DNA of 47,124 nt from a virus: IMG/VR virus record IMGVR_UViG_3300009706_000013, positions 1 through 47,124 of that record; one strand, 5' to 3'. The translations under genes were made by a program, and so were the position numbers. Positions 442-29,194 of the stretch are shown here, piece by piece (within the stretch, counting starts at the first letter, position 1; every line of letters begins with the position of its first letter). The notes below the pieces were generated by a model that saw only the letters and a program-made list of their open reading frames with translations, searched no databases and had not been told where the DNA came from.

Positions 442-1223
442 TGCCGAAGGTTTGTGCCTACCTGCGTGTCAGCAAGGACGAACAGAGCCTCAACGGCGAG
501 TCTCTGGATGATCAGGCTGCAAGGTCTACGGCATACTTCGATCTTCTCAAGACCATGCCCACTTCAGACTCCGGTCTGGAGTGGGGAGGGTTCTTCTTTG
601 AGAAGGGAGAGAGTGCGTGGAAGACTAGGCTCGTTGATCGTGAGGAGGGACGTCGGCTCAACAAGATCCTTGAGCGTGACGATCACATTGTATTCCTTCG
701 GATGGACAGAGCCTTCCGATCAGTGCAGGACTTCACGACAACGCTCCCGATGTGGGAGCAGCGTGGGATTACGATTCACTTCATCGACCAGTCCGTGAAC
801 CTGTCCACGCCGAACGGAAAGTTCTTCGCAAACGTACTCGTTGCTGTGGCACAGTGGGAGAGCGACATCAAGAGTCTGCGTAACAGGGAGGCTGCCGCCA
901 AGCGTAAGTCCGAGGGAAGGATGAACACACGTCAGCCGCCAATAGGTTACATGGCAGTAGGGAAGCGTAACGTACTGGTCAAAGACCCTGCCCAGATAGC
1001 CATCATGCGTCTCATATTCTTCATGAGGACCAAGAATGGCTACAGCTACGACCTCATCAGTGACAAGGTTGAGGAACTACTGTCCCAACGGGACGGCAGA
1101 GTCTTCCGCCGACGCAACGGGTTCGATGGCTCACGTCCTTGGCCAAGAGACAGGGTGCGCAAGGCGTACCACAGGTACGAGAAGATCGTTGCGTCCGACG
1201 AGCCTGTCTACACGGAGAGGTAG
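441..1223 (+). CDS. Serine recombinase, resolvase/invertase family, short form
   Basis: I chose the ATG at 441 because it overlaps the upstream stop (TGATG) and because the resolvase fold begins at once with CAYLRVSKDEQ, where the Ser of RVS is the expected nucleophile. Other family signatures are SLDDQ near residue 20, FLRMDRAFRS around residue 85, and a helix with VAVAQWESD followed by KRKSEGR. After the catalytic domain comes RQPPIGY and part of a DNA-binding recombinase domain. At 260 residues the protein is far shorter than large serine integrases (450 or more) but longer than simple resolvases. It could resolve genome multimers, invert DNA or be a truncated integrase. Its 3' end overlaps the convergent SNase gene by 16 bases. 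Confidence 0.88.
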   Translation: MPKVCAYLRVSKDEQSLNGESLDDQAARSTAYFDLLKTMPTSDSGLEWGGFFFEKGESAWKTRLVDREEGRRLNKILERDDHIVFLRMDRAFRSVQDFTTTLPMWEQRGITIHFIDQSVNLSTPNGKFFANVLVAVAQWESDIKSLRNREAAAKRKSEGRMNTRQPPIGYMAVGKRNVLVKDPAQIAIMRLIFFMRTKNGYSYDLISDKVEELLSQRDGRVFRRRNGFDGSRPWPRDRVRKAYHRYEKIVASDEPVYTER

Positions 1224-1597
1224 TCTTCGGCATGACCGAGGGCTACCATCTCCTGGTTCAGGTTGACCAGTGTGCCGTCAGGCTTACGCTTGCCGATGAT
1301 CTCTATAAGCCAGCGACCATACTTGCCAGAAGCGTCCATATCGTTTTTGGAACTCTGCTTGTGAGTCTTCACCGAGTGTGACCACATCTCTGTGGACAGT
1401 GAATACTTGTTCAGCAGATTCGTCAACGCTATCTTGGCCCGCTTGCCCTCATCGGTCTTCATCTCCTGTGCGTTGATCGCATAGAGCCTTGCCTTCATGC
1501 GGAAGGCTATGCCAAAGCCGCAGTCAACGATGACCTCCACGCTGTCTCCGTCGATCACTCTCATGATCTGAGCGTTGTAGACGTATCGTGTTTTCAT
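1208..1597 (-). CDS. Staphylococcal-nuclease-like (SNase) endonuclease
   Basis: The 129-residue protein matches the SNase OB-fold: VIDGDSVEV near the N-terminus, RLYAINAQEM in the middle, KYGRWL, then DGTLVNLNQEMVALGHAEDY. By alignment with staphylococcal nuclease, catalytic D21, R35, E43 and R87 correspond to D18, R37, E45 and R95. The calcium ligand D40 is replaced by N42. No signal peptide is seen, so it probably acts inside the cell on host or phage DNA. Its ATG overlaps the TGA of the upstream gene (ATGA at 1594-1597), making it the last gene of a minus-strand operon that collides with the plus-strand recombinase. Confidence 0.85.
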   Translation of the reverse strand: MKTRYVYNAQIMRVIDGDSVEVIVDCGFGIAFRMKARLYAINAQEMKTDEGKRAKIALTNLLNKYSLSTEMWSHSVKTHKQSSKNDMDASGKYGRWLIEIIGKRKPDGTLVNLNQEMVALGHAEDYLSV

Positions 1598-2073
1598 GGC
1601 TCCACCGTAGCCTTGATCTGGCCTTCGACTGATTCGATCAGCAAATCGAACTCTATCGGCGTGACTTTTGTATCACCAGGGGCCAGGGGTTTGGACGACT
1701 CCACGTTTCCAGGAGGAGGTGGGGTTTGGACGACGTTGTTTACAGCCCCTCCGGTGGATGCGTCAGCGAGCATCTGCATCCCCACAGTTCCAAGTCCACC
1801 GGCTCCGAGCAAACTTGCGGCCAACAGTGCGCCCTTGAGCAGGCCGCCGTTGTTATGAACGACGGTGTTGCTGGCTGGATGAGATGGATATGTTCCCACG
1901 TCTATATCTCCCAGACCCATGGCCATCGCTTCCGACTTCCTTCTTATCTTCAGTCGGTGTTCAACGTCATGTGTCCAAAGATTCGACAGCAGCGACCGAG
2001 CTTCGCGTGCTGATGATGCCGTCTTCGTCACTTCCGCTATGCAGTCGTGGTGTGGTGGGCTGCTCTCCGTCAT
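1594..2073 (-). CDS. Hypothetical protein with one hydrophobic segment, 159 residues
   Basis: The start at 2073 follows a good GAGAGGAG site. The N-terminal third is charged and polar. A Gly/Ala/Leu-rich hydrophobic stretch follows at about residues 77-102 (GGLLKGALLAASLLGAGGLG) and could be one membrane segment. After it come a Pro-rich linker (QTPPPPG) and an acidic C-terminus. It overlaps the upstream 92-residue gene by 107 bases in another frame, and its stop is coupled to the SNase gene. It sits next to lysis-like genes, so a membrane or envelope role is possible. No family is recognised. Confidence 0.6.
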   Translation of the reverse strand: MTESSPPHHDCIAEVTKTASSAREARSLLSNLWTHDVEHRLKIRRKSEAMAMGLGDIDVGTYPSHPASNTVVHNNGGLLKGALLAASLLGAGGLGTVGMQMLADASTGGAVNNVVQTPPPPGNVESSKPLAPGDTKVTPIEFDLLIESVEGQIKATVEP

Positions 2074-2245
2074 TGGTGTCTCCTCTCACCCAGTCCACCA
2101 TGGCCATATCCAGCGCGTGGAGGCTTTCCATCGTGCGACTGCTCTGCTCACCGACGCGCAGGCATGCCGTCACCGCTTCGATCAAAAGACCACGGTCGTC
2201 AAGATCGACTAACCGCTCTGCCTCCACACGCAACTCATCATCCAT
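1967..2245 (-). CDS. Small hypothetical protein, 92 residues, overlapping the next gene
   Basis: The ATG at 2245 has a G-rich stretch (GGGG) about 9 bases upstream. The first 55 residues read like an ordinary acidic helical protein (MDDELRVEAERLVDL and a later ALDMAMVDWV). The last 35 residues are coded in the same bases as the start of the downstream 159-residue gene. The tail is low in hydrophobic residues and may simply be what the overlap permits. No domain is recognised. Confidence 0.5.
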   Translation of the reverse strand: MDDELRVEAERLVDLDDRGLLIEAVTACLRVGEQSSRTMESLHALDMAMVDWVRGDTNDGEQPTTPRLHSGSDEDGIISTRSSVAAVESLDT

Positions 2246-2282: not shown

Positions 2283-2483
2283 CTAACCGGCGTTGATGGG
2301 TGCTTCACGGTGCATGATCTGCCGGATGGCTGCTGCCTGTACCGGATCAGTCTCGGCGTGCAGCTTGAGCATCACGCGATCAAGGATCGCCATGAAGTTC
2401 GTACTGGCGTCCGACTGGCGTGCCAGACGTTCGCCACTTGCTGCCGTCAACAACTCTTGCAGGTTCACATTTCCTTCGGCCAT
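2283..2483 (-). CDS. Small hypothetical helical protein, 66 residues
   Basis: The ATG at 2483 overlaps the TAA of the protease gene (TAATG) and has a GGGAG site 9 bases upstream, so it is probably translationally coupled to the protease. The sequence is alpha-helical and charged (LQELLTAASGERLARQ, AILDRVMLKLHAE), with no membrane segment or cysteine. A partner or regulator of the protease is possible from position alone. A 37-base gap with an imperfect inverted repeat (AGTCT and AGACT arms) separates it from the next gene. Confidence 0.6.
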   Translation of the reverse strand: MAEGNVNLQELLTAASGERLARQSDASTNFMAILDRVMLKLHAETDPVQAAAIRQIMHREAPINAG

Positions 2484-3454
2484 TACTTAGTCTCCCGTGG
2501 AACCAGACGCAGGCGTACCCGCGCCTTGAAGCTGGATGTCCAATCTTCAAGATGAGACAGCCGTCTAGTGATGTCAGTCGTGTTGGCATCGGCTCCATCC
2601 TTGCCGCCTTTTCCAGCCGGACCAGCAGGCCCGACCAGCTTATCTTTGTTCAGCTCAAAAAGTTTGAGAAAATCCAGCTCAGGTGTTACGTCGCCCTTAA
2701 CCCTGGTGCCCGGCAGCCCTTCGAGCACGGCGATGCGTGCCTGCATGGCCTCGACAGTTTTCTCAAGCCTCTCGATAGCCTCAGCCATCTTGTTGTCGCT
2801 GCCCAGCCTGTCTGGACGGTCGTAACCTTTCAGGAACTTGGCCAGTTGGCTTGGTGTGGAGGCGTATGCCTCCGTGTCCTTGTCGCTACCATGGGAGATG
2901 ACACCCACCAGTTCACCGGCCTTGTTGAATACCCCGCCACCACTGTCACCGTTCCCGAACTTCCCCTCCTTCACGGAGTAGTGGGCACGGAGAACCTTGA
3001 GGTTGCTGGGAGTGGTGGTCCCGAGATAGCTAAAAATCTTGGGACGAAGCGTCTTACCCGCCCGGAACCCGTAAGCCCTGACGGACACCTCTTTCCGGGG
3101 TAACGACGACCCAACCCCCCCAGGAGCCGACGACAAATTTGTAACTTTGGGTGACGGATCTGTCACCACGAACAACGCCATGTCGAGATGCTTGTCAACG
3201 CGGACCCACTTGGCTGCGTACTGTGTGCCATGTCGGTCATAGACATCGACGGTCTTTCCGACCTCTGCTCCACCGTGTGCCACGCTGAGTCCGACCGTCG
3301 CGTCACCCACGCGGACAATCGTGCCGGAACAACCAGCCACCCGAACACTGGCGTTCTCTGCCCTTACCCCAGCCAGGCACCAGGGGGTTTCGGCAGTGGC
3401 CAAAGCCACGCAGATAGCCAGTGCTGCCAAGGTTTTCCGTTTCCGTACCACCAT
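2483..3454 (-). CDS. Secreted trypsin-like serine protease with coiled coil and collagen-like stretch
   Basis: The 323-residue protein starts with a signal peptide: basic MVVRKRK, then a hydrophobic core ending near residue 34. A chymotrypsin/trypsin-fold protease follows. The catalytic triad is visible as His60 (LSVAHGG), Asp91 (KHLDMALF) and Ser171 (GNGDSGGG). Residues about 222-246 form a heptad-like coiled coil (AEAIERLEKTVEAMQARI). Residues 275-289 are a short Gly-X-Y run (GPAGPAGKGGKDGAD), and a basic helix ends the protein. The coiled coil and collagen-like run suggest trimerisation. The gene has its own consensus promoter and lies just after a holin-like membrane protein. I infer a role in lysis or envelope digestion; processing of virion proteins is an alternative, but the signal peptide argues for export. 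Confidence 0.88.
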   Translation of the reverse strand: MVVRKRKTLAALAICVALATAETPWCLAGVRAENASVRVAGCSGTIVRVGDATVGLSVAHGGAEVGKTVDVYDRHGTQYAAKWVRVDKHLDMALFVVTDPSPKVTNLSSAPGGVGSSLPRKEVSVRAYGFRAGKTLRPKIFSYLGTTTPSNLKVLRAHYSVKEGKFGNGDSGGGVFNKAGELVGVISHGSDKDTEAYASTPSQLAKFLKGYDRPDRLGSDNKMAEAIERLEKTVEAMQARIAVLEGLPGTRVKGDVTPELDFLKLFELNKDKLVGPAGPAGKGGKDGADANTTDITRRLSHLEDWTSSFKARVRLRLVPRETK

Positions 3455-3461
3455 GACCCAC

Positions 3462-3491
3462 AGTCTAGTACTACCCTAGACCGTGTGTCAA
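3462..3491 (-). promoter_or_regulatory. Predicted promoter of the protease gene with overlapping inverted repeat
   Basis: On the minus strand TTGACA (3491-3486, a perfect -35) is followed after 18 bases by TAGACT (3467-3462). An inverted repeat with arms GTCTAG and CTAGAC spans 3463-3481, covering the -10 and part of the spacer, as an operator would. Transcription would start near 3456, almost at the ATG. The -35 box overlaps the stop codon of the upstream membrane protein gene. Confidence 0.5.
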
Positions 3492-3685
3492 CTCTTGTCC
3501 TTTCCGTTCGCAAGTTTCCGTTTGACGACCTCGAATCCCCCGGCCAGAAGCATAAGTTCGACGATGGTCTTGACCTCTGTCTCGTCAAAGGCATTGGAGT
3601 TGAGGTAGAGAAAGATCGTGATCCCGGCGAACACTACGATCAGCCGGACGATTGACCAGATGGGGTGTTCTGTGTCGCGTGGCAT
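3488..3685 (-). CDS. Small membrane protein, holin-like, 65 residues
   Basis: A perfect AAGGAG site lies 7 bases before the ATG at 3685. One clear membrane helix covers residues 10-28 (WSIVRLIVVFAGITIFLYLN). A weaker hydrophobic segment follows at about 41-54 (IVELMLLAGGFEVV), and the C-terminus is basic (KRKLANGKDK). Size, hydrophobic profile and the charged tail fit a holin or a similar membrane protein. The next gene downstream encodes an exported protease, which supports a lysis cassette. Holins are too diverse for a firm call by eye. Confidence 0.6.
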   Translation of the reverse strand: MPRDTEHPIWSIVRLIVVFAGITIFLYLNSNAFDETEVKTIVELMLLAGGFEVVKRKLANGKDKS

Positions 3686-4124: not shown

Positions 4125-4424
4125 TTATCGGAAATACGCGAGGCAAACGCCAGCCTGAATCAGACCGACTGCTAGCCACACGACCCTCCAGCCCTTGATA
4201 TTGCGACGTTCGATCTCAAACATCGCGGTCAACGCGACACCAAGACCGGCAGCCTTTGTTGCAACCAGCCCCTCGACGCCTGCAAGATCTATGATTGCAA
4301 CGCAGAGTGGGTTCAGTTCCACGTCACGCAGAAACTCTGCATCCTGCACGCAGAAGTAACTGTCTGCTGACGTTCCGATTATTACCAAGGCTATTGGCCA
4401 GAGCCTTTTGATTCTGTTGAGCAT
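4125..4424 (-). CDS. Small integral membrane protein, possibly DUF5658-like, 99 residues
   Basis: A GGAG site lies 7 bases before the ATG at 4424. Three hydrophobic segments are visible: residues 8-25 (LWPIALVIIGTSADSYF), about 54-70 (GLVATKAAGLGVALTAM) and 79-98 (WRVVWLAVGLIQAGVCLAYF). An acidic residue in helix 1, the ELNPL motif and a Lys in helix 2 resemble the DUF5658 membrane family as I remember it. Its start overlaps the end of the interrupted RusA frame by 34 bases. It could be a second lysis-associated membrane protein. Confidence 0.65.
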   Translation of the reverse strand: MLNRIKRLWPIALVIIGTSADSYFCVQDAEFLRDVELNPLCVAIIDLAGVEGLVATKAAGLGVALTAMFEIERRNIKGWRVVWLAVGLIQAGVCLAYFR

Positions 4425-4780
4425 GAGACTTTCTCCACGGTTAGCACAACCCTCGGATCAGTCTTGCTGACGCTGAACTCAACAGGCAAGTAGGTAACCT
4501 TGTTGTCGTCGCTGAGTATTCCCGCATCGACAAGACCGTCGATGGCTGATTTGAGGCTTCACAACCCGTTGTCAGGATCACGACGACGCTTATCTTTGTG
4601 GAAGAATTCTATGCGCACCATGGCTGCGGACCAAGGTTCATCTGGAGCAACCATCCTGCCCATCTCCCCGGACAGGGAGCGGTATCCTCTGACGGCAGAC
4701 GCCTTCTGCATGTAATGCACCCTTGCGTTAGGGGAACATTCCCCTGGTGGCAACGGTAGCACTACGCGAACCCTGTCCAT
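4391..4780 (-). pseudogene. RusA-type Holliday junction resolvase interrupted by an in-frame TGA
   Basis: The frame opens at 4780 after a GAGGGG site and gives a typical RusA start (LPLPPGECSPNARVHY) and the catalytic motif DPDNGL. It then meets TGA at 4561-4559. Directly after the TGA, in the same frame, the family pattern continues (SLKSAIDGLVDAGILSDD) to a TAG at 4393-4391. The whole frame would be about 129 residues, normal for RusA, with D-x-D-N and the paired DD both present. So this is one gene with a single nonsense codon. Neighbouring genes use TGA as a real stop, so general recoding is unlikely. A point mutation, a sequencing error or readthrough remain possible. RusA cuts recombination and replication junctions, which fits the nearby Rad52 and helicase genes. 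Confidence 0.85.
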
Positions 4781-16552: not shown

Positions 16553-17002
16553 CTATACCACCTGTCCGAGCCACCCCAACGACTGGCCGCGTCCAGTCAG
16601 CGAGGCTTCGATGCCCTTCTGGATCGCCTGCGACCTAGCGCCGCTGTAGGAGTTAGATACGTCTTGCGATGCCCTCTGTTGTGCCCCTGCATGGGCCAAC
16701 GACATCAGATTGCTGGGCTGTCCCTGTATCCCTCTGCGAGCCTGGGACTGCGAGAGGTTTTGATTCGCCTTGGCGAAGTCGCCGGAGATGGAACCACGCA
16801 GACGCTGCCCCTCACGCCTCTCAGCCGTGGGAGACAGGTGACGGAACAACGAATCTTCAAAAACCTCTGTGCCGGGAATCCCCGGTCTTGAAAGCCCCCC
16901 GGTATTCGAGGCTACATCATTCCCGGGAGACCCTGAAAAGGGGACGATGGCAATGTCGGGGCCTGTGGCCTGTCGGGGAACTGGTGCTGGGTCTGCTCCC
17001 AC
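16553..17002 (-). CDS. Second frame of a probable -1 frameshift pair; Gly/Ser/Gln-rich virion protein
   Basis: This frame ends at a TAG (16555-16553) just before the 862-residue gene. The only long-form start is a GTG at 17002 with a poor ribosome binding site, lying 91 bases inside the upstream gene. After the upstream stop it reads like normal protein (PGIPGTEVFEDSLFRHLSP, then a helical Q/A/S-rich part and SLTGRGQSLGWLGQVV). A CCCTTTT heptamer in the overlap could join the two frames by -1 slippage, giving a product of about 330 residues. I think it is mainly translated that way. Confidence 0.6.
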   Translation of the reverse strand: MGADPAPVPRQATGPDIAIVPFSGSPGNDVASNTGGLSRPGIPGTEVFEDSLFRHLSPTAERREGQRLRGSISGDFAKANQNLSQSQARRGIQGQPSNLMSLAHAGAQQRASQDVSNSYSGARSQAIQKGIEASLTGRGQSLGWLGQVV

Positions 17003-17544
17003 TGCGGAGTTTCCATCCCGGGGTTCCCGAAGCCCGCGCTTCCTTTGAAGTAGTCACCCATGGAACCGAACACAGCCGGGAAGGATTTGTCGAACCTCTG
17101 CTGGGCCAGTAGGGCAGGCGTCTGGGCGATCTCAGCCAGCACGGGAGACATCGCCGTGTTGTAGAGGTTGCCAAGGAACCCGGCCTGTGTCCCGTAGTTC
17201 TGCGCTCCCGTCCCCATCATCTGGTTCAGAATAGCGGAGATGGCATTCATCTGGTGGCCATAGGCCCCAGTGTCATCCCCTTCCCGCATCTCGAACTGGC
17301 CGGTGATCGGGTTGAAGCTGTATCCACCACCCGATGAGCCTGTCCAGCCTGGCAGGCCACCAAGCATCCCGGCCATGTTTCCGCCGCCCTGGAACCCAGC
17401 GGGTCCTCCCATGGCTCCAGCCGGACCCGCGCTGCCCATGGGGTTGATCGACCCTGGAGGCGTAAAGGTTCTCTGAACCTGCGGAGGGGCCATGTTGGTG
17501 GTGGTGGACGGACCCCTGATAACCTGCTGCTGTGGACTTGTCAT
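16912..17544 (-). CDS. Gly/Met/Gln-rich virion protein, first part of a probable frameshift pair
   Basis: The frame is open from 17757, but the ATG at 17544 has a good AGGAG site and matches the end of the upstream gene (stop at 17567), so I start there (210 residues). The N-terminus is Pro/Gly-rich and disordered (MGSAGPAGAMGGPAGFQGGG). A helical part follows (HQMNAISAILNQMMG, AEIAQTPALLAQQRFDKS) of the kind seen in phage internal virion proteins. It stops at 16912, five codons after the heptamer CCCTTTT (16942-16936) that could shift ribosomes into the 16553 frame. Confidence 0.7.
   Translation of the reverse strand: MTSPQQQVIRGPSTTTNMAPPQVQRTFTPPGSINPMGSAGPAGAMGGPAGFQGGGNMAGMLGGLPGWTGSSGGGYSFNPITGQFEMREGDDTGAYGHQMNAISAILNQMMGTGAQNYGTQAGFLGNLYNTAMSPVLAEIAQTPALLAQQRFDKSFPAVFGSMGDYFKGSAGFGNPGMETPQWEQTQHQFPDRPQAPTLPSSPFQGLPGMM
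16936..16942 (-). promoter_or_regulatory. Candidate -1 ribosomal frameshift site, CCCTTTT
   Basis: In the frame of the 17544 gene the heptamer reads C CCT TTT, which fits the X XXY YYZ slippery pattern. Slippage by -1 re-pairs as CCC TTT and enters the open frame ending at 16553. The site lies in the overlap of the two frames, and the second frame lacks a convincing start of its own. No strong downstream stem was found by eye, only short GGG/CCC pairings. Confidence 0.5.
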
Positions 17545-17566
17545 TGATCTTTCTCCTACACTGATC

Positions 17567-19831
17567 TTACCCGACCCGTAGGCCATACGAGAAGTTTGTT
17601 GATCCGCCTCCACGGCGACCGCCGCCGCCTTGCCGAGTGGTTGGAGCAATAGCCTGGCTGTTAGGATACACAACTGGTGAACCTGACGGAACACCACTTT
17701 GCGGAGCCTGCTGCAACTTCGCGTTGGCCGTCTCGGCAATCTCCTGACCGTACTCACCTAGCTCCGGCGCTGCTCCTGGAATCGGGGCCACAGGTGGCAG
17801 TCCGGGGATCACGCCAGCACCGGGAATGTTCTGTCCGGGGGTGCCGTAACCGGGCTGTGGTTCTGTTGGGCCGGGCTGTGCCGGGAAGCCTGAGTCAGGC
17901 AACGTAGCCCATCCGGGCAAATCCAGGGACTGATCGCGTAGCGGCTGTTGAAGTCCGGGGAACATATTGCCCATGCCTCCGCCGCCTTGACCACCGCCAC
18001 CGGGTTGCATGCCACCCCATAGATCCACCAGACTTGGCTGTCCTCCACCCCATCCCTGCCAACCGCCCTGGTCTTGCCACCCACTCGGTTGCTGCTGCTG
18101 TTGTGGAGGAGCAACATTGGGGTTTCTGGCCATGAACTGTGTCAGGTTTACTGACGTGCTCTCGTTTGGCGACCACCCACCCCTGCTCATGTCTCGCTGC
18201 ATCTCCGGACTATTCCTGATGTACTCAGGAATATCAGACCATTTTGTCAGCCCTGTAGGCAGGCCCTGCTGGACAGGTTGTCCTGTCCTTCTGTCCAAGA
18301 CTCGTCCAGTAATCGGGTCCTGAAAAGACTGCCCCTGCTCCTGTCTCTGCCATCCCTGCTGGCCACCCCACTGCTGGGTCGGGGCCTGCTGGCCACCACC
18401 ACCCCAAAGATCCATCATGCTTTGCTGGCCACCGCCAAGCTGGTCGGGGTCCATCGCCCTCCATTCGTCGTGCGTCAGTCCCGGTGGAGGCTGCTGCTGA
18501 AGTGGGGCTGGGGTAGCTGGGGCTGGGGCTGGGGCTGGGGCTGGGGCTGGGTCTACAGACGACGCAGGCATCTTGTCCAGAAACTTCTGTGTGTTCTGTA
18601 TCTGCACCCGTAGCTGGAGCATTTCCGTATCGAGCTGGTCATCACTCTTACCGCCAGCAGCCAACCTGCTGCTCTCGGGGACATTCCTAAGATTCTGTAA
18701 CCGTTCAAGGCTGGACTGCCAGCCCTTCATGGCCTGGGAGTTTTTGAATTTTAGATTTTCCTGACCCTTATACTCCTCACTAGGGTTGTCAGGCTGCTGG
18801 GGCAGCGGCCCTGTCGCTGGTCCCTGACCCTGGCTGGCCCCCTCTTTCTGACTCTGTGCTTCTTTGCGACGTTGGTCCTGCTCCTCTGGCGACAAGTCGT
18901 CCCACGACTTAATGGGTTGCTGAGGCTGCGGACTGCCGGGGGCAGGGGTGAGCTTGTCCCTCCATCCAGGAACATTCTCGTCTCTCCACTTGTCATAACC
19001 CGACTGGTTATACGCATCTGGGTCACTCTTGTAGGACTCCCAGCCCGCCTTGTTACGCTGGTCCAGAGGGTCCAACCCTGTCTGCGCTTTGAACTTGGCC
19101 TGGAGCGGGGTATAGGCAGTAGCCTGACCTATTGGTTTCAGTCTGTCCCAGACGGTGACAAACGCATCTTTAGGTTGAGTGTAATCCTCTGGCCACCGGC
19201 CATGTTTCTCCTTGAAGTCGCGGGCTAGGTAATACTGCTGGGCTTCCTGGGACCTGCCAGACTCTTCATTTTCCTGTACCCACTTATCCCTATCTATCTC
19301 ATCCCTGACTGGATCCCTTTCTTGCTGTGGTGGAGGCGAGGGAGATGGAAACCCAGGGAAGGGGGGGCGAGGAAACCCAGGGAAGGGGGGGCGTCCTGGG
19401 CCTCTTTTCGGAGGCTGGCTGGGACGCGGGATATTGGGTCCCTCAAGTTTTGTTCTCCAGAATTCTTGGTCGATGGACACCTGATCTGGACCGGCTTCAT
19501 CCTCCCCAGGTTGGCTGCCCGGCTGGCCTCCGTCAGGCAGACCTATGACAGGCTCCTCGGGTGATGGCGGGGTCGGCTGCTGGGGCTGCTGGGGCTGTTG
19601 GGGCTGTTGGGGCATAAACGACTGGATCTGCGGCATCCTTGACACCAACACCGCAACGACCTCCTTGTCGGTCATCGGTCCAGTCTTGGACCCAGCCCGT
19701 ATGTCGTCCACCTCTTTCTGAGTGACACCCCACCTGCGGTCCATCATCTCACTAAGAGGTGTGTCCAGTTGCTTCTGGTACGCCTCGTCTCGGCGTTTCG
19801 CGCCTTCTGATCCCGGTGCAAAATAAACCAT
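17567..19831 (-). CDS. Pro/Gln/Gly-rich low-complexity protein, 754 residues
   Basis: The frame is open from an ATG at 19852, but I prefer 19831 (MVYFAPGSEG), because it follows the upstream stop and shares its start with the neighbouring MVYIPPTQR protein. The N-terminus is helical. Pro-rich tracts follow (QPQQPQQPQQPTPP, RPPFPGFPRPPFPGF), then a hydrophilic helical middle with many Trp-Asp/Lys-Trp patterns, a PAPAPAPAPAP linker, and a Gly/Gln/Trp-rich C-terminal third. The protein is probably extended and disordered, perhaps a fibre or flexible surface protein. It sits in a run of four such genes. Confidence 0.65.
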   Translation of the reverse strand: MVYFAPGSEGAKRRDEAYQKQLDTPLSEMMDRRWGVTQKEVDDIRAGSKTGPMTDKEVVAVLVSRMPQIQSFMPQQPQQPQQPQQPTPPSPEEPVIGLPDGGQPGSQPGEDEAGPDQVSIDQEFWRTKLEGPNIPRPSQPPKRGPGRPPFPGFPRPPFPGFPSPSPPPQQERDPVRDEIDRDKWVQENEESGRSQEAQQYYLARDFKEKHGRWPEDYTQPKDAFVTVWDRLKPIGQATAYTPLQAKFKAQTGLDPLDQRNKAGWESYKSDPDAYNQSGYDKWRDENVPGWRDKLTPAPGSPQPQQPIKSWDDLSPEEQDQRRKEAQSQKEGASQGQGPATGPLPQQPDNPSEEYKGQENLKFKNSQAMKGWQSSLERLQNLRNVPESSRLAAGGKSDDQLDTEMLQLRVQIQNTQKFLDKMPASSVDPAPAPAPAPAPATPAPLQQQPPPGLTHDEWRAMDPDQLGGGQQSMMDLWGGGGQQAPTQQWGGQQGWQRQEQGQSFQDPITGRVLDRRTGQPVQQGLPTGLTKWSDIPEYIRNSPEMQRDMSRGGWSPNESTSVNLTQFMARNPNVAPPQQQQQPSGWQDQGGWQGWGGGQPSLVDLWGGMQPGGGGQGGGGMGNMFPGLQQPLRDQSLDLPGWATLPDSGFPAQPGPTEPQPGYGTPGQNIPGAGVIPGLPPVAPIPGAAPELGEYGQEIAETANAKLQQAPQSGVPSGSPVVYPNSQAIAPTTRQGGGGRRGGGSTNFSYGLRVG

Positions 19832-19832
19832 G

Positions 19833-20828
19833 CTATTTACCCGGCCATCCACGAGGACTGTGAGCAGATCTCGGTTGTGAGTGGTCTACATCAAAGTGTG
19901 CTTGAACGTGCTGGTGGCCTTTGAGAGTTCCGTCAGGATTGAAGTGCTTCATATCAACCGTGGACCAATCGGTCTCGAACCCGCCGGGCAAACCCTCCAT
20001 TAGGTCCTTCATGTCCGGGCGGGGGGGCTGTCCTCCGTCTGGACCCGGCTCTGGACCAGGCTCTGGACCAGGCTCTGGACCCGGCTCATCCATGGGGCCA
20101 TGCTCCGCAATGTTCTGCCTGATCCAGTTGAAGATCGTCACCGGCCCATTGAACATTCCGAACCCTGGAATGTCCGCAGATACGGGGTAGTCTCCATCAG
20201 GCACTGGTGGGGCCGGGGACCATGATTCAGGAACCCCTCTGGTCTTGGGCTTTGGCGGCTCGCCTTGGTCGGGACCATCTCCCGGCTTCGGGAAGCCTGG
20301 ACCAGGCATTCCGGGTCCGGGCTGCATTCCACCGCCACCCATTCCACCGCCACCCATCAGCATCATCATCAGCATCTGCATCAGAGGGTTGTTGCCGCCT
20401 GTGTCAGGCTTCGGCTGATACCTGTTGGACAAGCCGTCCAGAAAGTTCTGCAACTCAGGGGAGATTCCCGGCATCCCCGGTGGGCCACCACCTGCCCCCG
20501 GAAACCCACTGGAGTCTGGGGCAATCGGGAGGGGTGCTGGGGCAGGCTGGGGTGACGGGCTAGGTGCAGGCGGCATCTGCTGCGACCACTCACCCGCTAT
20601 GCCCGAAGGCTGGACGGGGCTGAACGATTGCTGCGGGCCACCTACCTGCGGGCCACCGTGAGCCGTCTGCTGCTGGGGCTGCCACTGCTGAGTCTGAGGC
20701 TGAGGCTGCTCCCACTGCTGCTGTGGTTGGCCCCACTTCTGCTGATCAGGCTGGCCCCATTGCTGCTGCTGGGGCTGTCCCCATTGCTGCTGCTCAGGCT
20801 GATGCTGTTGTTCGCCAAAGTAGGGCAT
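19833..20828 (-). CDS. Gln/Pro/Gly-rich low-complexity protein, 331 residues
   Basis: An AGGTGA site precedes the ATG at 20828. The first 60 residues are a repeat of a Q-Q-W-G-Q-P type unit (QQWGQPQQQQWGQPDQQKWG). Pro-rich and Met/Gly-rich tracts follow (GGGGMGGGGMQPGPGMPGPG), then an EPGPEPGPEPGPEPGP repeat. A less biased C-terminal part (GGFETDWSTVDMKHFNPDG) may fold. The next gene begins at the stop. It is likely an elongated virion or adhesin-type protein; no family is recognised. Confidence 0.65.
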   Translation of the reverse strand: MPYFGEQQHQPEQQQWGQPQQQQWGQPDQQKWGQPQQQWEQPQPQTQQWQPQQQTAHGGPQVGGPQQSFSPVQPSGIAGEWSQQMPPAPSPSPQPAPAPLPIAPDSSGFPGAGGGPPGMPGISPELQNFLDGLSNRYQPKPDTGGNNPLMQMLMMMLMGGGGMGGGGMQPGPGMPGPGFPKPGDGPDQGEPPKPKTRGVPESWSPAPPVPDGDYPVSADIPGFGMFNGPVTIFNWIRQNIAEHGPMDEPGPEPGPEPGPEPGPDGGQPPRPDMKDLMEGLPGGFETDWSTVDMKHFNPDGTLKGHQHVQAHFDVDHSQPRSAHSPRGWPGK

Positions 20829-20831
20829 TGG

Positions 20832-21893
20832 TCACCTGTTTACGCCACTAGGCATCGGTCCACCTCTGCCGTCAACCCTCTGCTGTTGCCCCATTTGATT
20901 CTTGTAGACACCCGGCGACTGTGGATACTGAACCGGAGCAGGTCCTTGCCACGGCGGAGGCTGTGCACCACCACCGGGCTGCTGCTGCTGATTGGGTCCT
21001 TGCCACGGCGGAGGCTGTGCACCACCACCGGGCTGCTGCTGCTGATTGGGTCCTTGCCACGGCCGGGGCTGTGCACCACCACCGGGCTGCTGCTGTCCGC
21101 CACCTGGGTTGTAGCCGGGGGGTAGCTGAGAGAGGGGCTGTCCACCACCCTGATAAGTTTGGTTGGGGTCTATCATGCCTCCCGGTTTAGGGCCTACAAC
21201 CCCGCCGCCGGGAGGATACTGGCCACCAGGAGCAAAATTTTGTTGGTTGTCCCACCACCTTTGCCTGTCATAGGCCTGCTGCTGGCCGCCGGGCTGGGTA
21301 GGCAAGGAAGGAGACGGCGGAAAGAAGCCTGGTGGCGGCGGCTGACCATTCGGTCCAGGTGCTCCCGGCCAATGAGTAGGCCCGCTAGGCGGTTGCGGCT
21401 GACCACCGGGTTGCTGGCCTATTCCAGGCAGGAAATCTAGTCCCAGCCCCGTGCCGGGGGGAGGACTCCTCGCCCATTCCGGATCGAACCCACCGGATCC
21501 GGGGAGAGGCTGATTCCCCATCCCAGCGCCTGGCGTCACGGCATCTGAGCCGGGAGGACGTCCGGGCATGGAGATGTCTAGTGGTCCCGGTAACGGATTG
21601 TATCCGGGAATCATCGGAAAACCACCGGGATTGTTCCCCGGCAGGTTCGGGGCCAGGCCGGGGTCCATCGGAGGGTTAACGCCTGGAGCGCCTGGGGCCT
21701 GGGGGTTGAACGGAGGGGGTCCGGGAGGAGGCGGAAAGGCATTCTGGCCACCGCCGGGCTGCTGACCAAGCTGGTTTCCGCCGTATGACTGCATCCCCAT
21801 TCCTGGATTACCCGTACCCCTAGGCCTCCCGGCACCACCGGGACGCGAGACCCCTTGCTGTGTTTGAAATCCCGGCTGCTGTGGCAATGCCAT
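20832..21893 (-). CDS. Pro/Gly/Gln-rich protein with 18-residue tandem repeats, 353 residues
   Basis: GGGAG lies 9 bases before the ATG at 21893. Almost the entire protein is Pro, Gly and Gln with few charged residues (for example GLAPNLPGNNPGGFPMIPGY). Near the C-terminus an 18-residue unit (QQQQPGGGAQPPPWQGPN) is repeated nearly three times, matching a 54-base DNA repeat at 20941-21097. Such composition implies an unfolded, extended chain. It lies between two genes of the same style and probably arose by duplication and repeat expansion. Confidence 0.65.
   Translation of the reverse strand: MALPQQPGFQTQQGVSRPGGAGRPRGTGNPGMGMQSYGGNQLGQQPGGGQNAFPPPPGPPPFNPQAPGAPGVNPPMDPGLAPNLPGNNPGGFPMIPGYNPLPGPLDISMPGRPPGSDAVTPGAGMGNQPLPGSGGFDPEWARSPPPGTGLGLDFLPGIGQQPGGQPQPPSGPTHWPGAPGPNGQPPPPGFFPPSPSLPTQPGGQQQAYDRQRWWDNQQNFAPGGQYPPGGGVVGPKPGGMIDPNQTYQGGGQPLSQLPPGYNPGGGQQQPGGGAQPRPWQGPNQQQQPGGGAQPPPWQGPNQQQQPGGGAQPPPWQGPAPVQYPQSPGVYKNQMGQQQRVDGRGGPMPSGVNR
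20941..21097. repeat. 54-base tandem repeat, almost three copies, inside a coding region
   Basis: Copies start at 20941, 20995 and 21049. The first two are near identical; the third carries a few changes (ccgg in place of cgga) and is cut short. The period is 18 codons, so length changes would keep the frame. This marks a region of likely copy-number variation between related phages. Confidence 0.85.
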
Positions 21894-21904
21894 CCCTTGT
21901 CTCC

Positions 21905-23953
21905 CTACACGATATGTCGTGGCTTCTTAGGCGTTGGGCGATTGTCAGCACCCATCTTCCTGATCCCGCCATACTCACTCTTGTCGTCGCGATCAGGCCG
22001 GTCTGGCCGAACCTTCCGTTTCGATATGATGGTTCCCTTCGTAGGCTCCCACGGCTTTCCATCCGCTGTGGTATATGACTGGCCAGGAATATTGCCGGGA
22101 GGCTTCCAACTGTCATCAACACTCTGCCACCCTCCACCGCCGTAGTCACCTTTGTGAAAGACCCACGACCTTCCCTCACCCGCCGACGTGGATGGAGGAG
22201 CCTTGAAGTCTTGTCCACCTCCACCTTCGGGGGTTGTCGGTCCAGGCTTGGGTCCTAGATCAGGCTTGTTGCCTTCTCCTCCCGGGACGCCGGGTCCGGG
22301 CATGGGTACTAGATCAGGAGGGTCGCCGGGTCCGGGCTTCGGGGGTGTCGGGTGGGGCGTCGGAACCTCACCGGGTCCGGGCGGGAGTCCGCCGGGATCC
22401 ATGGCAGTTGGCCACTTGAAGCCTGTCACCTTCTCGTAACGATCCTTGATCCAATCCTCATCCACGGTCCCGTTAGTTACTCCCTTGCGCAACTCCTCCA
22501 GGTATTTTGCTGCCGCATCCCTTTGTTCGGGAGTGTCTCGCCACGGACCTCCCAATATGGCAGCCTCAAGCCTCTCTCGGCCCTCATGAAACACCCTGTC
22601 CTGACGCTCTGTTGGAGTCTCGAAGGGGCGAGGCGGCGGGGGAGGCTTCGGTTCTGGCCTTGACGGCCTGTCTGGATGCGGCTTCGGCCCGGTCGGCTTC
22701 TGATCAGGTGGCTTCTGTCCGGGTCCTCCGGGCTGTCCGGGTGGCTGCTGATCCGGTGGAAGACCTCCGTCTGGCAATCCGGGTCCGCCGGGCTGTCCGG
22801 GTACACCACCGGGCTGTCCGGGTCCGCCGGGCTGTCCGGGTCCGCCGGGCTGTCCGGGCACTCCACCACCGGGCTGTCCGGGTACACCGCCGGGCTGTCC
22901 GCCGGGCTGTCCTCCGGGCTGTCCTCCGGGCTGTCCGGGTCCGCCGGGCTGTCCGGGCACTCCACCACCGGGCTGTCCACCACCCGGCATTCCACCACCG
23001 GGTCCGCCACCGGGCATTCCACCGCCGGGTCCGCCACCGGGCTGTCCGCCACCGGGTCCGCCACCGGGCTGTCCGCCACCGGGCATTCCACCACCGGGCA
23101 TTCCACCACCGGGCATTCCACCACCGGGAAGCCCAATTGGTGGCTGCATAGGTGGCTGTCCGCCACTTCCAGGTCCTCCTCCAGATGGGAACCCACCTGA
23201 TTGAGGCGGCGGGAAGTTGCCACCCGGAGTCCCGCCTGGAAATACCGGCTGGACGGGGTACACGGGCATTCCACCACCTGTGTTACTAGTGTCACCCGGC
23301 ATGAATACTGGTGGCTGCGGAAGCTGCGGCCAGCCCGGTGGGTATTGGGGTGGGTATTGGTATCCACCTCCGGGTTGGCCGGGGCTGTTCGGTACCGGAG
23401 TGTTGGGGTCTACGCCTCCGGGTGTCTCACTGCCGGGAGGTGGCAGTTGGGGATAATCCGGGTTCGTGGTCCCGCCAGGATTTGTGTACGGATCATACGG
23501 GCCAAGGTCGCCAGTTGTTGCAGGGTCTGCCGGGACACCTCCAGGCTGAGACGGATCAACCGGAACCTGTGGCCACTGTGGCTGACCCTGGCCCGGACCC
23601 GATGGGATCGGGTCCCATCCACCCGGGACACCTCCAGGCTGAGACGGATCAACCGGAACCTGTGGCCACTGTGGCTGACCCTGGCCCGGTAGGACCGGGT
23701 CCCATCCACCCGGGGAGGTCGGCCCAGAGTTCCACGGGCCTCCGGGACTAGAGGGTAAAGGCGCAGTGACGCCTGGCCCAGCCGGGATCGGGTTCCATGG
23801 TGGCGGGGCCTGACCCTGACCCATGCCTGGTGATGTGGATCCTGGAGGCTGCATGGACATCTGCTGCGCACCGCTGTTCTGGGCGTTACCGTTCATCGAC
23901 TGATTGGTAATGCCGTTCTGTCTAGCACGCTGCGTGGGCGGGATATACACCAT
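21905..23953 (-). CDS. Collagen-like Pro/Gly-rich protein, 682 residues
   Basis: A GAGGTGA site lies before the ATG at 23953. Residues 1-270 are Pro/Gln/Gly-rich, with a 31-residue unit (containing QPQWPQVPVDPSQPGG) present twice. Residues about 273-405 are a dense Gly/Pro repeat of the types GGGMPGGG, GGPGGGQP and PGQPGGPGQPGG, partly Gly-X-Y as in collagen. Residues 430-680 are different: a helical Arg/Glu-rich segment (RQDRVFHEGRERLEAAI), Pro-Gly linkers, and a Lys/Arg-rich end (KRKVRPDRPDRDD). Collagen-like phage proteins are usually trimeric fibres. The adjacent glycosyltransferase could modify it. Confidence 0.72.
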   Translation of the reverse strand: MVYIPPTQRARQNGITNQSMNGNAQNSGAQQMSMQPPGSTSPGMGQGQAPPPWNPIPAGPGVTAPLPSSPGGPWNSGPTSPGGWDPVLPGQGQPQWPQVPVDPSQPGGVPGGWDPIPSGPGQGQPQWPQVPVDPSQPGGVPADPATTGDLGPYDPYTNPGGTTNPDYPQLPPPGSETPGGVDPNTPVPNSPGQPGGGYQYPPQYPPGWPQLPQPPVFMPGDTSNTGGGMPVYPVQPVFPGGTPGGNFPPPQSGGFPSGGGPGSGGQPPMQPPIGLPGGGMPGGGMPGGGMPGGGQPGGGPGGGQPGGGPGGGMPGGGPGGGMPGGGQPGGGVPGQPGGPGQPGGQPGGQPGGQPGGVPGQPGGGVPGQPGGPGQPGGPGQPGGVPGQPGGPGLPDGGLPPDQQPPGQPGGPGQKPPDQKPTGPKPHPDRPSRPEPKPPPPPRPFETPTERQDRVFHEGRERLEAAILGGPWRDTPEQRDAAAKYLEELRKGVTNGTVDEDWIKDRYEKVTGFKWPTAMDPGGLPPGPGEVPTPHPTPPKPGPGDPPDLVPMPGPGVPGGEGNKPDLGPKPGPTTPEGGGGQDFKAPPSTSAGEGRSWVFHKGDYGGGGWQSVDDSWKPPGNIPGQSYTTADGKPWEPTKGTIISKRKVRPDRPDRDDKSEYGGIRKMGADNRPTPKKPRHIV
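22738..23133. repeat. Highly repetitive Pro/Gly codon tract
   Basis: Dozens of near-identical 9- to 15-base units (ccgggctgtccgggt and ccaccgggcattcca types on the plus strand) encode the collagen-like part of the 682-residue protein. The tract is entirely in frame and shows no spacer/repeat regularity of a CRISPR. It is prone to slippage and to assembly error, so its exact length may be unreliable. Confidence 0.85.
23531..23689. repeat. 66-base identical direct repeat with a 93-base period
   Basis: The segment 23531-23596 is repeated exactly at 23624-23689. The 93-base period equals 31 codons, so it duplicates a peptide unit of the collagen-like protein without shifting the frame. Complete identity over 66 bases suggests a recent duplication or ongoing conversion. 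Confidence 0.85.
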
Positions 23954-23956
23954 TGT

Positions 23957-25408
23957 TCACCTCATTTCGAGGAGCTTACCAGAAGCATCCACTTCGTTCC
24001 AGATGTCCTCGATGTGATCGGCCTCACAAGACCAGTCTACTAGGAACCTATAGCCAGTGTCATCGCTCAATCGCTTGTAGATCGCTGAGTCCACCCAGCC
24101 TTTGCAGTACGACGTGTCTGCTGAAAGAACCTCATTCGCAAGGCACGACCGGCGGAAGATCGTGCAGCCGAAGCCGTTTCCACCAACGCGGACAACGCCC
24201 TCTCCCTGTTGCCTACACAGCTCGCGGTTTTTGTCCCAATGGCAATAGGCGTCGGTATACCTCTGCCTGTATGGGGCAGCGACAGACGCAACCCGAGAGG
24301 AAAACGATTTCATCAGTCGTAACCCCGTGTCCAAATGAGGGATTACGTCGTCCTCAAGTATCCACACGAACTCGGTTGTGACGTCTCGCATCATCTGATT
24401 GTAGATTTTGCCAACCTCAAGCGTCACCTCGTCTTGAACGTCCTTCTCTCGCCTGTCCATGTCAGCCAGTCCGGCGCGGCTGGCCTTTCTCTTGACGTAG
24501 CGGAAATCCGGGTAGTCGGACTGGTGCAGCCACTCCCTGACTTCTTCGCCAAATGCGACATCGTCACTGCCGTCGTACATCAGCAGTTTGATCTGATCCT
24601 TTGGCCACGTCTGCTCCTCAAGGAACTCACGCATGCGTGGCCATGCCCAGTCCCTGCCTGACAGCGGGATGAACAGGGTCAGGTCTTCCATCTCCAGGCT
24701 GGCAGACTTGTAGTAGGGCACGCTTCCGTTGTTCAGATGCTCGTTTTTTCCGTGCATCCGGTACAGCAGCATGGACGCCTGCTTCCCCACAGTCCAACCG
24801 GCACGCAGAACCGCCCTCCAGATGTACCAGTCTGCCATGGGTGCATACCCGATGGCGTCCTTCTCGAAGGCTTCGGTCAGATTCAGTGCGTGCCTGCGGA
24901 CAAGAGCACTGCAATGGATGTAGTTGTCCCTCTCCATCATGTCACGGTTGAACGACGGATAGTGCTTTGTCTCGTACCTGTTGCCTATGGTGTGCAGGTC
25001 TGACGTGACAATCCCCACCCTGTAATCAGCGAACAGGGGCATGCCCCCGGCCAGGTAGTCACGCTCCATCATGTCGTCGGCGTCAACGAAACAGACTATG
25101 TCGCTCTTGGTGTTCCTAAACCCGAACCCCCGTGACAGGTACACGTCCCGGTATGCCACTTTCTCGTACCTGACCCCGTCATTCTGGTAGTCTTTGGCCA
25201 CCTGTGCCGTGTTGTCTGACGAGGAGTCGTCAACAACCAGTATCTCCCGTGGACGCTTGGTCTGATCCACAACGCTCCGGATGCACTCCCCCAGGAATCT
25301 GCCGTAGTTGTGAGACACGATGACCACCGACACCGTGTTCGCACCCGGCGTGCCCTTGGCAAGCATGCTGCGAATCTTGCCGCCCATCTTTCTTTTCTTG
25401 CGATTCAT
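23957..25408 (-). CDS. Two-domain GT-A glycosyltransferase, family 2 type, 483 residues
   Basis: I start at 25408 because this ATG overlaps the upstream stop (ATGA); the longer frame adds 15 unlikely residues. Domain 1 (residues 26-230) is a classic GT2: VSVVIVSHNYGRFLGECIRS, ILVVDDSSSDNT and the metal-binding FVDADD (107-112), then ADWYIWRAV. Domain 2 (244-483) starts again with LFIPLSGRD and has ILEDDV (350-355) and GNGFGCTIFRR, a second GT-A-like fold. No membrane segment is seen, so it acts in the cytoplasm. Directly downstream is the collagen-like gene, which makes virion protein glycosylation a reasonable guess; host surface change is the alternative. Confidence 0.85.
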   Translation of the reverse strand: MNRKKRKMGGKIRSMLAKGTPGANTVSVVIVSHNYGRFLGECIRSVVDQTKRPREILVVDDSSSDNTAQVAKDYQNDGVRYEKVAYRDVYLSRGFGFRNTKSDIVCFVDADDMMERDYLAGGMPLFADYRVGIVTSDLHTIGNRYETKHYPSFNRDMMERDNYIHCSALVRRHALNLTEAFEKDAIGYAPMADWYIWRAVLRAGWTVGKQASMLLYRMHGKNEHLNNGSVPYYKSASLEMEDLTLFIPLSGRDWAWPRMREFLEEQTWPKDQIKLLMYDGSDDVAFGEEVREWLHQSDYPDFRYVKRKASRAGLADMDRREKDVQDEVTLEVGKIYNQMMRDVTTEFVWILEDDVIPHLDTGLRLMKSFSSRVASVAAPYRQRYTDAYCHWDKNRELCRQQGEGVVRVGGNGFGCTIFRRSCLANEVLSADTSYCKGWVDSAIYKRLSDDTGYRFLVDWSCEADHIEDIWNEVDASGKLLEMR

Positions 25409-26466
25409 GATGCCACCCATGCTCTGGCATCCACGTTCAGGTCTATGTAGCACACGGGACTGCCACCAGTGTCCGTCACGCCCGTCCCGTTACTGACCCA
25501 ACGGATATAGATTTCTGACCCATCGACATACACTGTCTCCACGTCATACGGGGGATCAACCGTCTGCGACTCGCTGACACCTCCTGCTGTAGCAGTACGA
25601 GCCTGACTGTCATCCTCTACGTCTGTGTAGGAGTTGCCGCTAATGGTCTCACCATCGTAATAACTCGTCCTCAAGACTGGAGGTTTGGCCACGGTGACCG
25701 TGTCTCCGATGATCTCCCGTTTCACCTCCAGGTACTCCTCGTAGACGGCAGTCACTTCGCCACGGTTGACAGCCCACCCGTGCAGGTTCTTGATCCACCA
25801 CAGGGGGTTCCCGTTGAGGGTCAACTGGTGTGCTGTATCAGGCGGGTGGCTACCTTGCAGCGTCGAAGAATCAGAGCAGTTGACACGGGACGACTTCTGC
25901 AAGCTGGACAGCATCTGGCCGTAACCGGCTATTACCACGAACGTCGGTGGGTCTATGCCCACCAGTCCGGGTATGCCAGTTCCGCTGTTCCCGGTGTTGT
26001 ATCCGCTCTTGAGATCAGCCCCTCCCTGAGTCTTCTTGTTCACTCCTGGTCCAGCAGGCGAGCCGCTAGGGTTGTCTGTGCTGTCCGGGGTAAGTGTCGT
26101 GTATCCCCCGTGACCACCTACCGACGAGTATTTCTGATGCACCAAGTCCGGGTCCAGGGCGTAGTTTATCAGAGGGATGATTTCGTTGGCCACGATCCCC
26201 TCTGACCCCATCCCCACGCCTAGTGTTGATTGCTCACCCTTGTCGTTGATGACAGACAGTCCGCTGTGGTTCGTGTCCCCCACGTTGTTGATGCGGATAG
26301 CGGGACCGTTCGTCTTGTTGTTCAGGACCAGAGGCTCCTCCAGAGTGATCCCATCTGAAGATGACAACGCAGCCACCAACGCCTCGGAAAACTCCTGTAC
26401 CTCAGGAGACCACTCCCTCTGGGACAGGTTTGCGATTACTCCACCAAACAAGGACTTCAAGCTCAC
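25405..26466 (-). CDS. Putative tail or fibre protein, 353 residues
   Basis: It begins with a GTG whose TG is shared with the stop of the previous gene (GTGA), with GGAG upstream. The N-terminal 110 residues (NNKTNGPAIRINNVGDTNH and GLSVINDKGE) resemble beta-helical fibre segments. A Gly/Ser/Thr-rich middle follows. The C-terminus is beta-rich with many Tyr and Val (VYVDGSEIYIRWVSNGTG). Position after the propeller protein fits a tail-tip or fibre component. The host receptor is unknown. Confidence 0.6.
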   Translation of the reverse strand: MSLKSLFGGVIANLSQREWSPEVQEFSEALVAALSSSDGITLEEPLVLNNKTNGPAIRINNVGDTNHSGLSVINDKGEQSTLGVGMGSEGIVANEIIPLINYALDPDLVHQKYSSVGGHGGYTTLTPDSTDNPSGSPAGPGVNKKTQGGADLKSGYNTGNSGTGIPGLVGIDPPTFVVIAGYGQMLSSLQKSSRVNCSDSSTLQGSHPPDTAHQLTLNGNPLWWIKNLHGWAVNRGEVTAVYEEYLEVKREIIGDTVTVAKPPVLRTSYYDGETISGNSYTDVEDDSQARTATAGGVSESQTVDPPYDVETVYVDGSEIYIRWVSNGTGVTDTGGSPVCYIDLNVDARAWVAS

Positions 26467-28751: not shown

Positions 28752-29194
28752 TAGCTTGTCCTCGGATTCTTCCTGAATTCAAGAACACCGGAGTCCAGAT
28801 GTCCGACAATGTGGCTGGCCTGTGGGCGCTTGTAATGCTGCACTGCCGTGTACGCCCCATCCTGGTGACCACCACCCACCACCCTGAACCGCTTCAGATC
28901 CGCCCCGTTGTGGGTTCCTGCCGACCACTCGAACAGAGCGTGATGCACGCCCTCGCTGAACCCTGACGCCAGCCTGCCCTCGATCTCGAACATCCCTGTC
29001 CTGTTGCTGACATCCTTTGCAGGGATGGACTTTCCGCTGACAACGGACGCGAAGTCCCCGTCGTATACCGTCACAGTGGGAGCACTGTCCGGAGCGACAG
29101 CGTCACCGTTTGCATCAGTGCATTGCACGGACAACGGAACCCACTCACCCAGCTTATAGCGTCCCAGATACATCGAGTTCTTCTTCCTCTCCAT
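28751..29194 (-). CDS. Small beta-sandwich virion protein, paralogue of the gene at 31127
   Basis: The frame encodes 147 residues from 29194, or 140 from an ATG at 29173 that lines up better with its paralogue and has AGGA about 11 bases upstream. Shared features with the 106-residue protein at 31127 include LSVQC/VAIQC, SAPTVTVY/SAPTYTVY, TGMFE/VGFRTG, and a C-terminal F-V/M-V strand. It is probably an Ig-like or baseplate-type domain. It overlaps the end of the 657-residue ejection-like gene, so the two may be co-assembled. Confidence 0.65.
   Translation of the reverse strand: MERKKNSMYLGRYKLGEWVPLSVQCTDANGDAVAPDSAPTVTVYDGDFASVVSGKSIPAKDVSNRTGMFEIEGRLASGFSEGVHHALFEWSAGTHNGADLKRFRVVGGGHQDGAYTAVQHYKRPQASHIVGHLDSGVLEFRKNPRTS

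Follow-up and report, generated by a model that had tools for sequence, protein, structure and literature searches.

How might a phage open its host with an exported protease? To our knowledge, a muralytic enzyme is employed by every double-stranded DNA phage for which the lysis mechanism is established. The question is raised by the virus record IMGVR_UViG_3300009706_000013, whose 47,124 bases, analysed as a whole, we refer to as the window. Here a gene for a secreted trypsin-like protease adjoins a gene for a small, holin-like membrane protein, and a sequence-only reading of this DNA had proposed that the two might constitute a lysis cassette that digests protein. In what follows, we examine the protease, its membrane partner and the wider module to which they belong, and weigh the lysis proposal against other roles that an exported phage protease might fulfill.

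The window is a partial genome, encoding among others a portal protein (PHROG_156, also matched weakly by the Pfam P22_portal model) and a major head protein (PHROG_9953). An open reading frame (ORF) continues in frame across both ends, as though the window were a closed circle; this reading was rejected because a near-identical contig, G001, carries about 10.1 kb between the window ends. Every protein that G001 has in common with the window is identical or nearly so, and together the two amount to about 57 kb.

The Protease and Its Relatives

The following parts of the protease gene, all on the minus strand, can be distinguished:

2483..3454 (-): secreted serine protease of 323 aa, trypsin-like and of HtrA/DegS type, called from Trypsin_2, PHROG_9683, predicted fold and homologs
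3392..3454 (-): Sec signal peptide, residues 1-21, MVVRKRKTLAALAICVALATA followed by E, predicted cut after ATA (sequence, hydropathy, homolog N-termini)
2825..3349 (-): trypsin-fold catalytic domain (sequence motifs, homolog alignment, predicted fold)
3275-3277, 3182-3184 and 2942-2944 (-): catalytic triad H60, D91 and S171, respectively (S1 motifs)
2717..2797 (-): heptad-repeat helix spanning residues 220-246, probably a coiled coil (heptads; helix predicted at low confidence)
2588..2632 (-): collagen-like Gly-X-Y run of five triplets, residues 275-289 (sequence, homologs)
2498..2563 (-): C-terminal motif R..LE.W...F+A.+R+RL.P, also given as R..LE.W..NF+A.+R+R+.P (homolog alignments)

The protein matches Pfam Trypsin_2 with an E-value of 1.6e-8, exceeding the curated cut-off, as well as PHROG_9683, annotated as “protease.” Its triad resides in the motifs SVAHGG (H60), HLDMALF (D91) and GDSGGG (S171), and among 22 aligned homologs neither D91 nor S171 varies, while H60 occurs in all those whose sequence extends over the position. 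Full-length homologs likewise begin with signal-like N-termini; no second protein with a clear signal peptide turned up in the window ORFs examined. Downstream of the catalytic domain, the heptad a and d positions between residues 223 and 244 read M-I-L-V-M-I-L, such that seven core positions are filled. The five-triplet Gly-X-Y run, equalled in 47 of 20,000 shuffles, is kept in full-length homologs and is longer in some, reaching 12 triplets in L094. Indeed, the signal peptide, heptad helix, Gly-X-Y run and C-terminal motif all recur in full-length homologs down to roughly 30% identity. The signal peptide, His-Asp-Ser triad, coiled coil and Gly-X-Y run described in the sequence-only reading were thus all recovered in place. 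With respect to cysteines, aligned relatives possess Cys61 of a likely Cys42-Cys61 pair, where the window protein has Gly61 along with Cys26; a re-paired disulfide involving Cys26 is possible.

An AlphaFold2 monomer model, confident for the catalytic domain only (pLDDT mostly >80 for residues 31-210), predicts a chymotrypsin double-barrel fold for which DegP, HtrA1 and DegS reach DALI-scale Z scores of ~21-22. Foldseek searches with the model place MarP (Rv3671c) first, with DegS and DegP close behind, and the sequence profile of the protease matches HtrA1, HhoA and DegQ/DegS. The signal peptide and trypsin fold are accordingly common to the window protease and the HtrA/DegS/DegP family (peptidase S1C). 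Because no PDZ domain is matched by Pfam, the C-terminus holding instead the heptad helix, the collagen-like run and a phage-specific motif, sequence and model together indicate an HtrA-like S1 protease, related distantly and by fold, rather than a canonical HtrA; a further difference is the small-membrane-protein gene alongside. MarP of Mycobacterium tuberculosis is a periplasmic trypsin-like protease that cuts the wall hydrolase RipA (PMC6628586), but it is a bacterial stress protein held by four N-terminal membrane helices, and activation of a RipA-type hydrolase by the window protease would be an analogy only. Among viral proteins, A0A516LES5 of BFVD is 34% identical to the protease over 319 alignment columns; this and other trypsin-like phage proteins are related to it and carry no function label in the tables.

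The Small Membrane Partner and the Junction between the Genes

Two features define the upstream side of the protease gene:

3488..3685 (-): type T membrane protein of 65 aa, holin-like and predicted to form a two-helix hairpin (hydropathy, predicted fold, position)
3454..3490 (-): 14-pair palindrome or RNA hairpin that begins at the stop codon of the upstream 65-aa gene and ends at the protease start codon (folding energy, relatives)

The 65-aa gene lies 33 nt upstream of the protease gene. Its product is predicted to form helices at residues 8-28 and 35-64 (core pLDDT ~85), the first of which is clearly hydrophobic, and by prediction it has the size and topology expected of a holin, being short with between one and four membrane helices. 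The holin-like neighbor of the sequence-only reading is therefore borne out as a membrane protein, by hydropathy and by a predicted two-helix hairpin. Its designation as a putative holin derives from size, topology and position: neither Pfam nor PHROG yields a holin-family match for the small membrane proteins considered here, holins being a very diverse group. In sister lineages the place of this protein is taken by others. The type C partner (~90 aa) starts with a coiled coil and ends in a membrane helix, and the type U partner (L186-188) is a third kind with two helices. Homology of type C with XhlA was considered and gained no support, as PF10779 gave no match for L094 and L082 (Pfam, E 0.1) and none above cut-off in 18 records; by sequence, the resemblance appears to be one of architecture only.

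The stop-to-start hairpin has a folding energy of -20.9 kcal/mol (z -3.1) and is kept in close relatives, where changes fall in the loop or give a G-U pair. More distant members have no such hairpin; their genes overlap or are separated by different gaps. The overlapping palindrome is thus a real and conserved element, for which translational coupling would be the simplest reading, translation of the protease being tied to that of the membrane gene; a function as an operator is possible. The dedicated promoter proposed with it did not hold up. The match put forward, TTGACA-18-TAGACT, is part of this element, its -35 box overlapping the upstream stop codon within the palindrome, and promoter-like matches in the region number four against 2.5 +/- 1.5 expected, which is chance level.

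Conservation and Exchange of the Module

The gene cluster continues beyond the protease, on the same strand, with the following features:

2283..2483 (-): conserved gene for 66 aa, immediately following the protease gene (59/59 loci)
1967..2245 (-): small ORF, with the 66-aa gene on one side and the gene for the second membrane protein on the other; relatives encode 76-80 aa here
1594..2073 (-): second membrane protein, 159 aa, with the motif DVGTYP and a Gly-rich hydrophobic stretch (49/49 loci)
1208..1597 (-): SNase-like endonuclease, closing the cluster (PHROG_452 endonuclease, E 8.4e-19)

Profile searches of IMG/VR returned 38 loci of the protease family and more were reached by way of neighboring genes, giving about 60 contigs in total. 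A small membrane protein is encoded directly 5' of the protease in 56 of the 59 contigs of uncultivated marine viruses whose upstream side can be judged (that of L170 is cut off). These partners belong to three sequence-dissimilar types, namely T in 26 contigs, C in 27 and U in three, and these counts include near-identical contigs. No contig has both T and C, and each T or C gene that was found independently is followed by the protease. The exceptions are L162, in which the protease has an N-terminal helix of its own, L172 and L173, all of which are without a separate small membrane gene at this position. Most pairs of partner and protease have a spacing of -22 to +34 nt. In a tree of 34 distinct protease sequences, a single switch between T and C suffices, falling between two lineages (support 95/92). 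On the 3' side, a gene of 64-66 aa follows the protease at all 59 loci with room for it, and the DVGTYP membrane protein lies downstream at 49 of 49, these being counts of loci of which some are overlapping stretches of one contig. By sequence comparison, then, the membrane protein and the secreted HtrA-type protease represent a conserved and closely coupled gene pair, and the pairing suspected from the window alone can be extended to a conserved module whose membrane component can be exchanged. Between the window and three more contigs that bear the module, blastp finds few virion-block proteins in common (one in G024, one in G027 and two in G028), showing at this level of comparison that phages with largely unrelated virion genes share the module. 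Queries with the window protease, the 65-aa protein, a type C protease and a DVGTYP protein had, at the sensitivity applied, no tblastn match in 50,697 deposited phage records.

Two observations concern the edges of this cluster. Relative to G003, the 66-aa gene has accumulated 15 synonymous and no non-synonymous codon changes, where the adjoining protease is 76% identical, a pattern indicative of extreme purifying selection on the small gene. At the far end of the module, on the opposite strand, the window encodes a serine recombinase with a Resolvase N-terminal domain (405-1223, +), members of whose family are also present in G016, G020 and G024.

The Search for a Lysin

The sequence-only reading had seen no classical endolysin in the window. 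This holds at the level of Pfam, where none of the ORFs scanned matched a peptidoglycan-hydrolase family, and for four lysin families (Phage_lysozyme, Amidase_2, Peptidase_M15_4 and NLPC_P60) in a six-frame search, which returned nothing in 20 records including the window and related phages. A lysin might have been concealed in the large virion proteins, but these have no Pfam or PHROG lysin match. It might equally have been situated in the missing 10 kb; this stretch of G001 encodes a single-stranded DNA-binding protein (SSB), a C5-cytosine methylase, a DUF6744 protein and a DUF2201 metallopeptidase/VWA protein, and neither its scanned ORFs nor those of G016 have a lysin match in Pfam. The lysozyme or amidase that had been suggested as a check on the rest of the genome was thus not found among the scanned ORFs of the ~10.1 kb, and an endolysin-spanin cassette elsewhere, which had been named as evidence that would count against the proposal, was not found by sequence. 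Scanning with Pfam was confined to chosen ORFs in G016, G024 and G020 and is not exhaustive there: G024, whose scanned ORFs gave no lysin match, proved on six-frame search to carry a gene for a C92 papain-like enzyme.

Sister lineages differ from the window in this regard. Those with type C partners have a gene for a Peptidase_C92 enzyme (YaeF/YiiX, a permuted papain-like amidase) in or near the cassette, and in L102 inside it. In L173, L186 and L188 (lineage U and L173), a papain-like protein is encoded upstream of the protease, as judged from the motif LGPSH...CSELV; PF05708 gives no match. In eight type T records of the window lineage (G000, G001, G008, G016, G023, G026, G027 and G028), neither the Pfam model nor a profile built for this purpose detected a C92-like or similar papain-like gene. 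The idea that a protease has replaced the muramidase consequently survives in part: the window lineage showed no recognisable endolysin in these searches, but the replacement is not a rule of the whole family, because sister lineages also have the C92 enzyme. Furthermore, a phage with a 45%-identical capsid protein and without the module (G020) is also without a recognised lysin among the ORFs scanned. For this reason the missing lysin is at most moderate evidence for a protease-based mechanism, and these phages may, to judge from their sequences, have lysins that are undetectable.

What the Module May Do

We consider the chances about even that the pair lies at the heart of a module for lysis, or for breaching the envelope, that exports a protease as its enzyme; this protease would cut envelope proteins or activate the wall hydrolases of the host. 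The protease would be exported by Sec, as its signal peptide suggests, and would mature in the periplasm, where its C-terminal heptad helices and collagen-like stalk may bring about oligomerisation, probably to a trimer. The small membrane protein, judged holin-like from its size and topology, from the coupling of the genes and from the exchange of partner types, would collapse or perforate the inner membrane and so set the timing. The protease would then disable the envelope by cutting load-bearing or surface-layer proteins or, alternatively, by activating host peptidoglycan hydrolases, for which MarP and RipA offer a precedent.

Several lines of evidence favor this reading: the small membrane protein, in three dissimilar types, that precedes the protease in nearly all contigs; the signal peptide and full triad, found family-wide; the predicted HtrA/DegS fold; the absence of a lysin from searches of the window lineage; the recurrence of the module in phages that, by blastp, have hardly any virion genes in common with the window; and the C92 enzyme in or near the sister cassettes, as would be predicted of a set of genes for attacking the envelope. 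The layout is also that of holin-endolysin cassettes, including those with LysA/LysB, in which a short membrane protein adjoins or overlaps an envelope enzyme and membrane partners vary among related cassettes (PMC9671378). The window module departs from these in that its enzyme is a protease and not muralytic or an esterase, and in that no homology to a known holin family was found. The case is weakened because the holin designation derives from size, topology and position, with no Pfam or PHROG family matching, because a Sec-exported enzyme can leave the cytoplasm without a holin, because three contigs have no separate membrane gene before the protease, and because the module is much larger than two genes and is followed in the window by a nuclease gene. 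The broader proposition, that a widespread group of marine phages lyses by means of an oligomeric protease of HtrA type that is exported by Sec, is triggered by a small two-helix holin and needs no peptidoglycan-cutting enzyme of the phage, digesting envelope proteins or unleashing host autolysins, is put forward tentatively, and we regard it as doubtful.

The same protease could serve to remodel the cell surface. Possibly a trimer, it would shave receptors, surface layers or hostile proteins, with the membrane protein as its anchor or export partner, to the end of superinfection exclusion or of keeping released virions free. A signal peptide would export the enzyme all through infection, the HtrA fold is one of periplasmic proteases, and the C-terminal motif, together with the stalk and the coiled coil, seems fit for display or anchoring; the serine recombinase, moreover, makes a temperate life possible. 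Such a role leaves unexplained both the dissimilar membrane proteins that occupy the same slot 5' of the protease and the missing lysin, and we judge it unlikely. More improbable again is that the protease is an accessory factor that helps a divergent, unrecognised endolysin, much as LysB does in mycobacteriophages. The papain-like C92 enzyme of the sister lineages would fit this account, as would G020 in showing that such phages can be without a recognisable lysin, but the window lineage has no C92-like gene, and its examined ORFs offer no second candidate with a clear signal peptide. Least probable of all is a protease that belongs to the particle, as a virion or ejection component, and digests surface protein at entry, a role suggested by the collagen-like repeats common in tail fibres and by the Gly-X-Y part of relatives, which matches PHROG tail-fibre families, but opposed by the cleavable signal peptide of full-length homologs, the position of the gene apart from the virion block and the recurrence of the module alongside virion genes mostly unrelated to those of the window.

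Host and Significance

No relative of the protease, membrane protein or terminase that would name a host was found in deposited phages or plasmids. Two capsid matches of 20-24% in phages of Bradyrhizobium and Stenotrophomonas are too distant for host assignment, and a search of 84,980 genomes gave one weak 28% match to a trypsin-like protein of Sphingobacterium, taken to be an unrelated S1 protease. The suggestion that the protein-rich envelopes of some Planctomycetes would favor lysis by protease was set aside, because no host evidence was found and because Planctomycetes possess peptidoglycan sacculi that are sensitive to lysozyme (PMC4432640).

In open-access full text, we found nothing relevant on phage lysis by a trypsin-like protease or on a module of this kind. 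Its parts are of known kinds; their conserved combination is, as far as our searches reach, undescribed. If the lysis reading is correct, a module built around a protease would represent a second solution beside muralytic enzymes, would hint at hosts with a protein-dependent envelope or with autolysins that can be hijacked, and would supply a genomic marker for such phages. Whatever its role, a module spread over about 60 contigs and at least two deep lineages, and unmatched by tblastn among deposited phage records, offers a compact and testable system.

Other Features of the Genome

Within the virion block, about 7 kb (16912-23953, -) encode low-complexity proteins rich in Pro, Gly and Gln, for example that at 21905-23953, which are poorly conserved in relatives; the block also includes a gene for a family 2 glycosyltransferase (23957-25453, -). 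Very long open frames occur in related contigs, with at least 4,242 residues in L116 (contig G024, which carries the module; record positions 18001-30726) and 3,125 residues in G026. Lastly, the window gene for a RusA-like Holliday-junction resolvase (4424-4780, -) contains an in-frame TGA at 4559-4561, within the active-site motif DPDNGL*SLKSAID. The TGA is also present in G003 and G008, and distant relatives have a sense codon there. Past it, the frame completes the C-terminal half of RusA and, over 46 codons, differs from G003 by five synonymous changes and one non-synonymous change, a pattern that suggests UGA readthrough or recoding.
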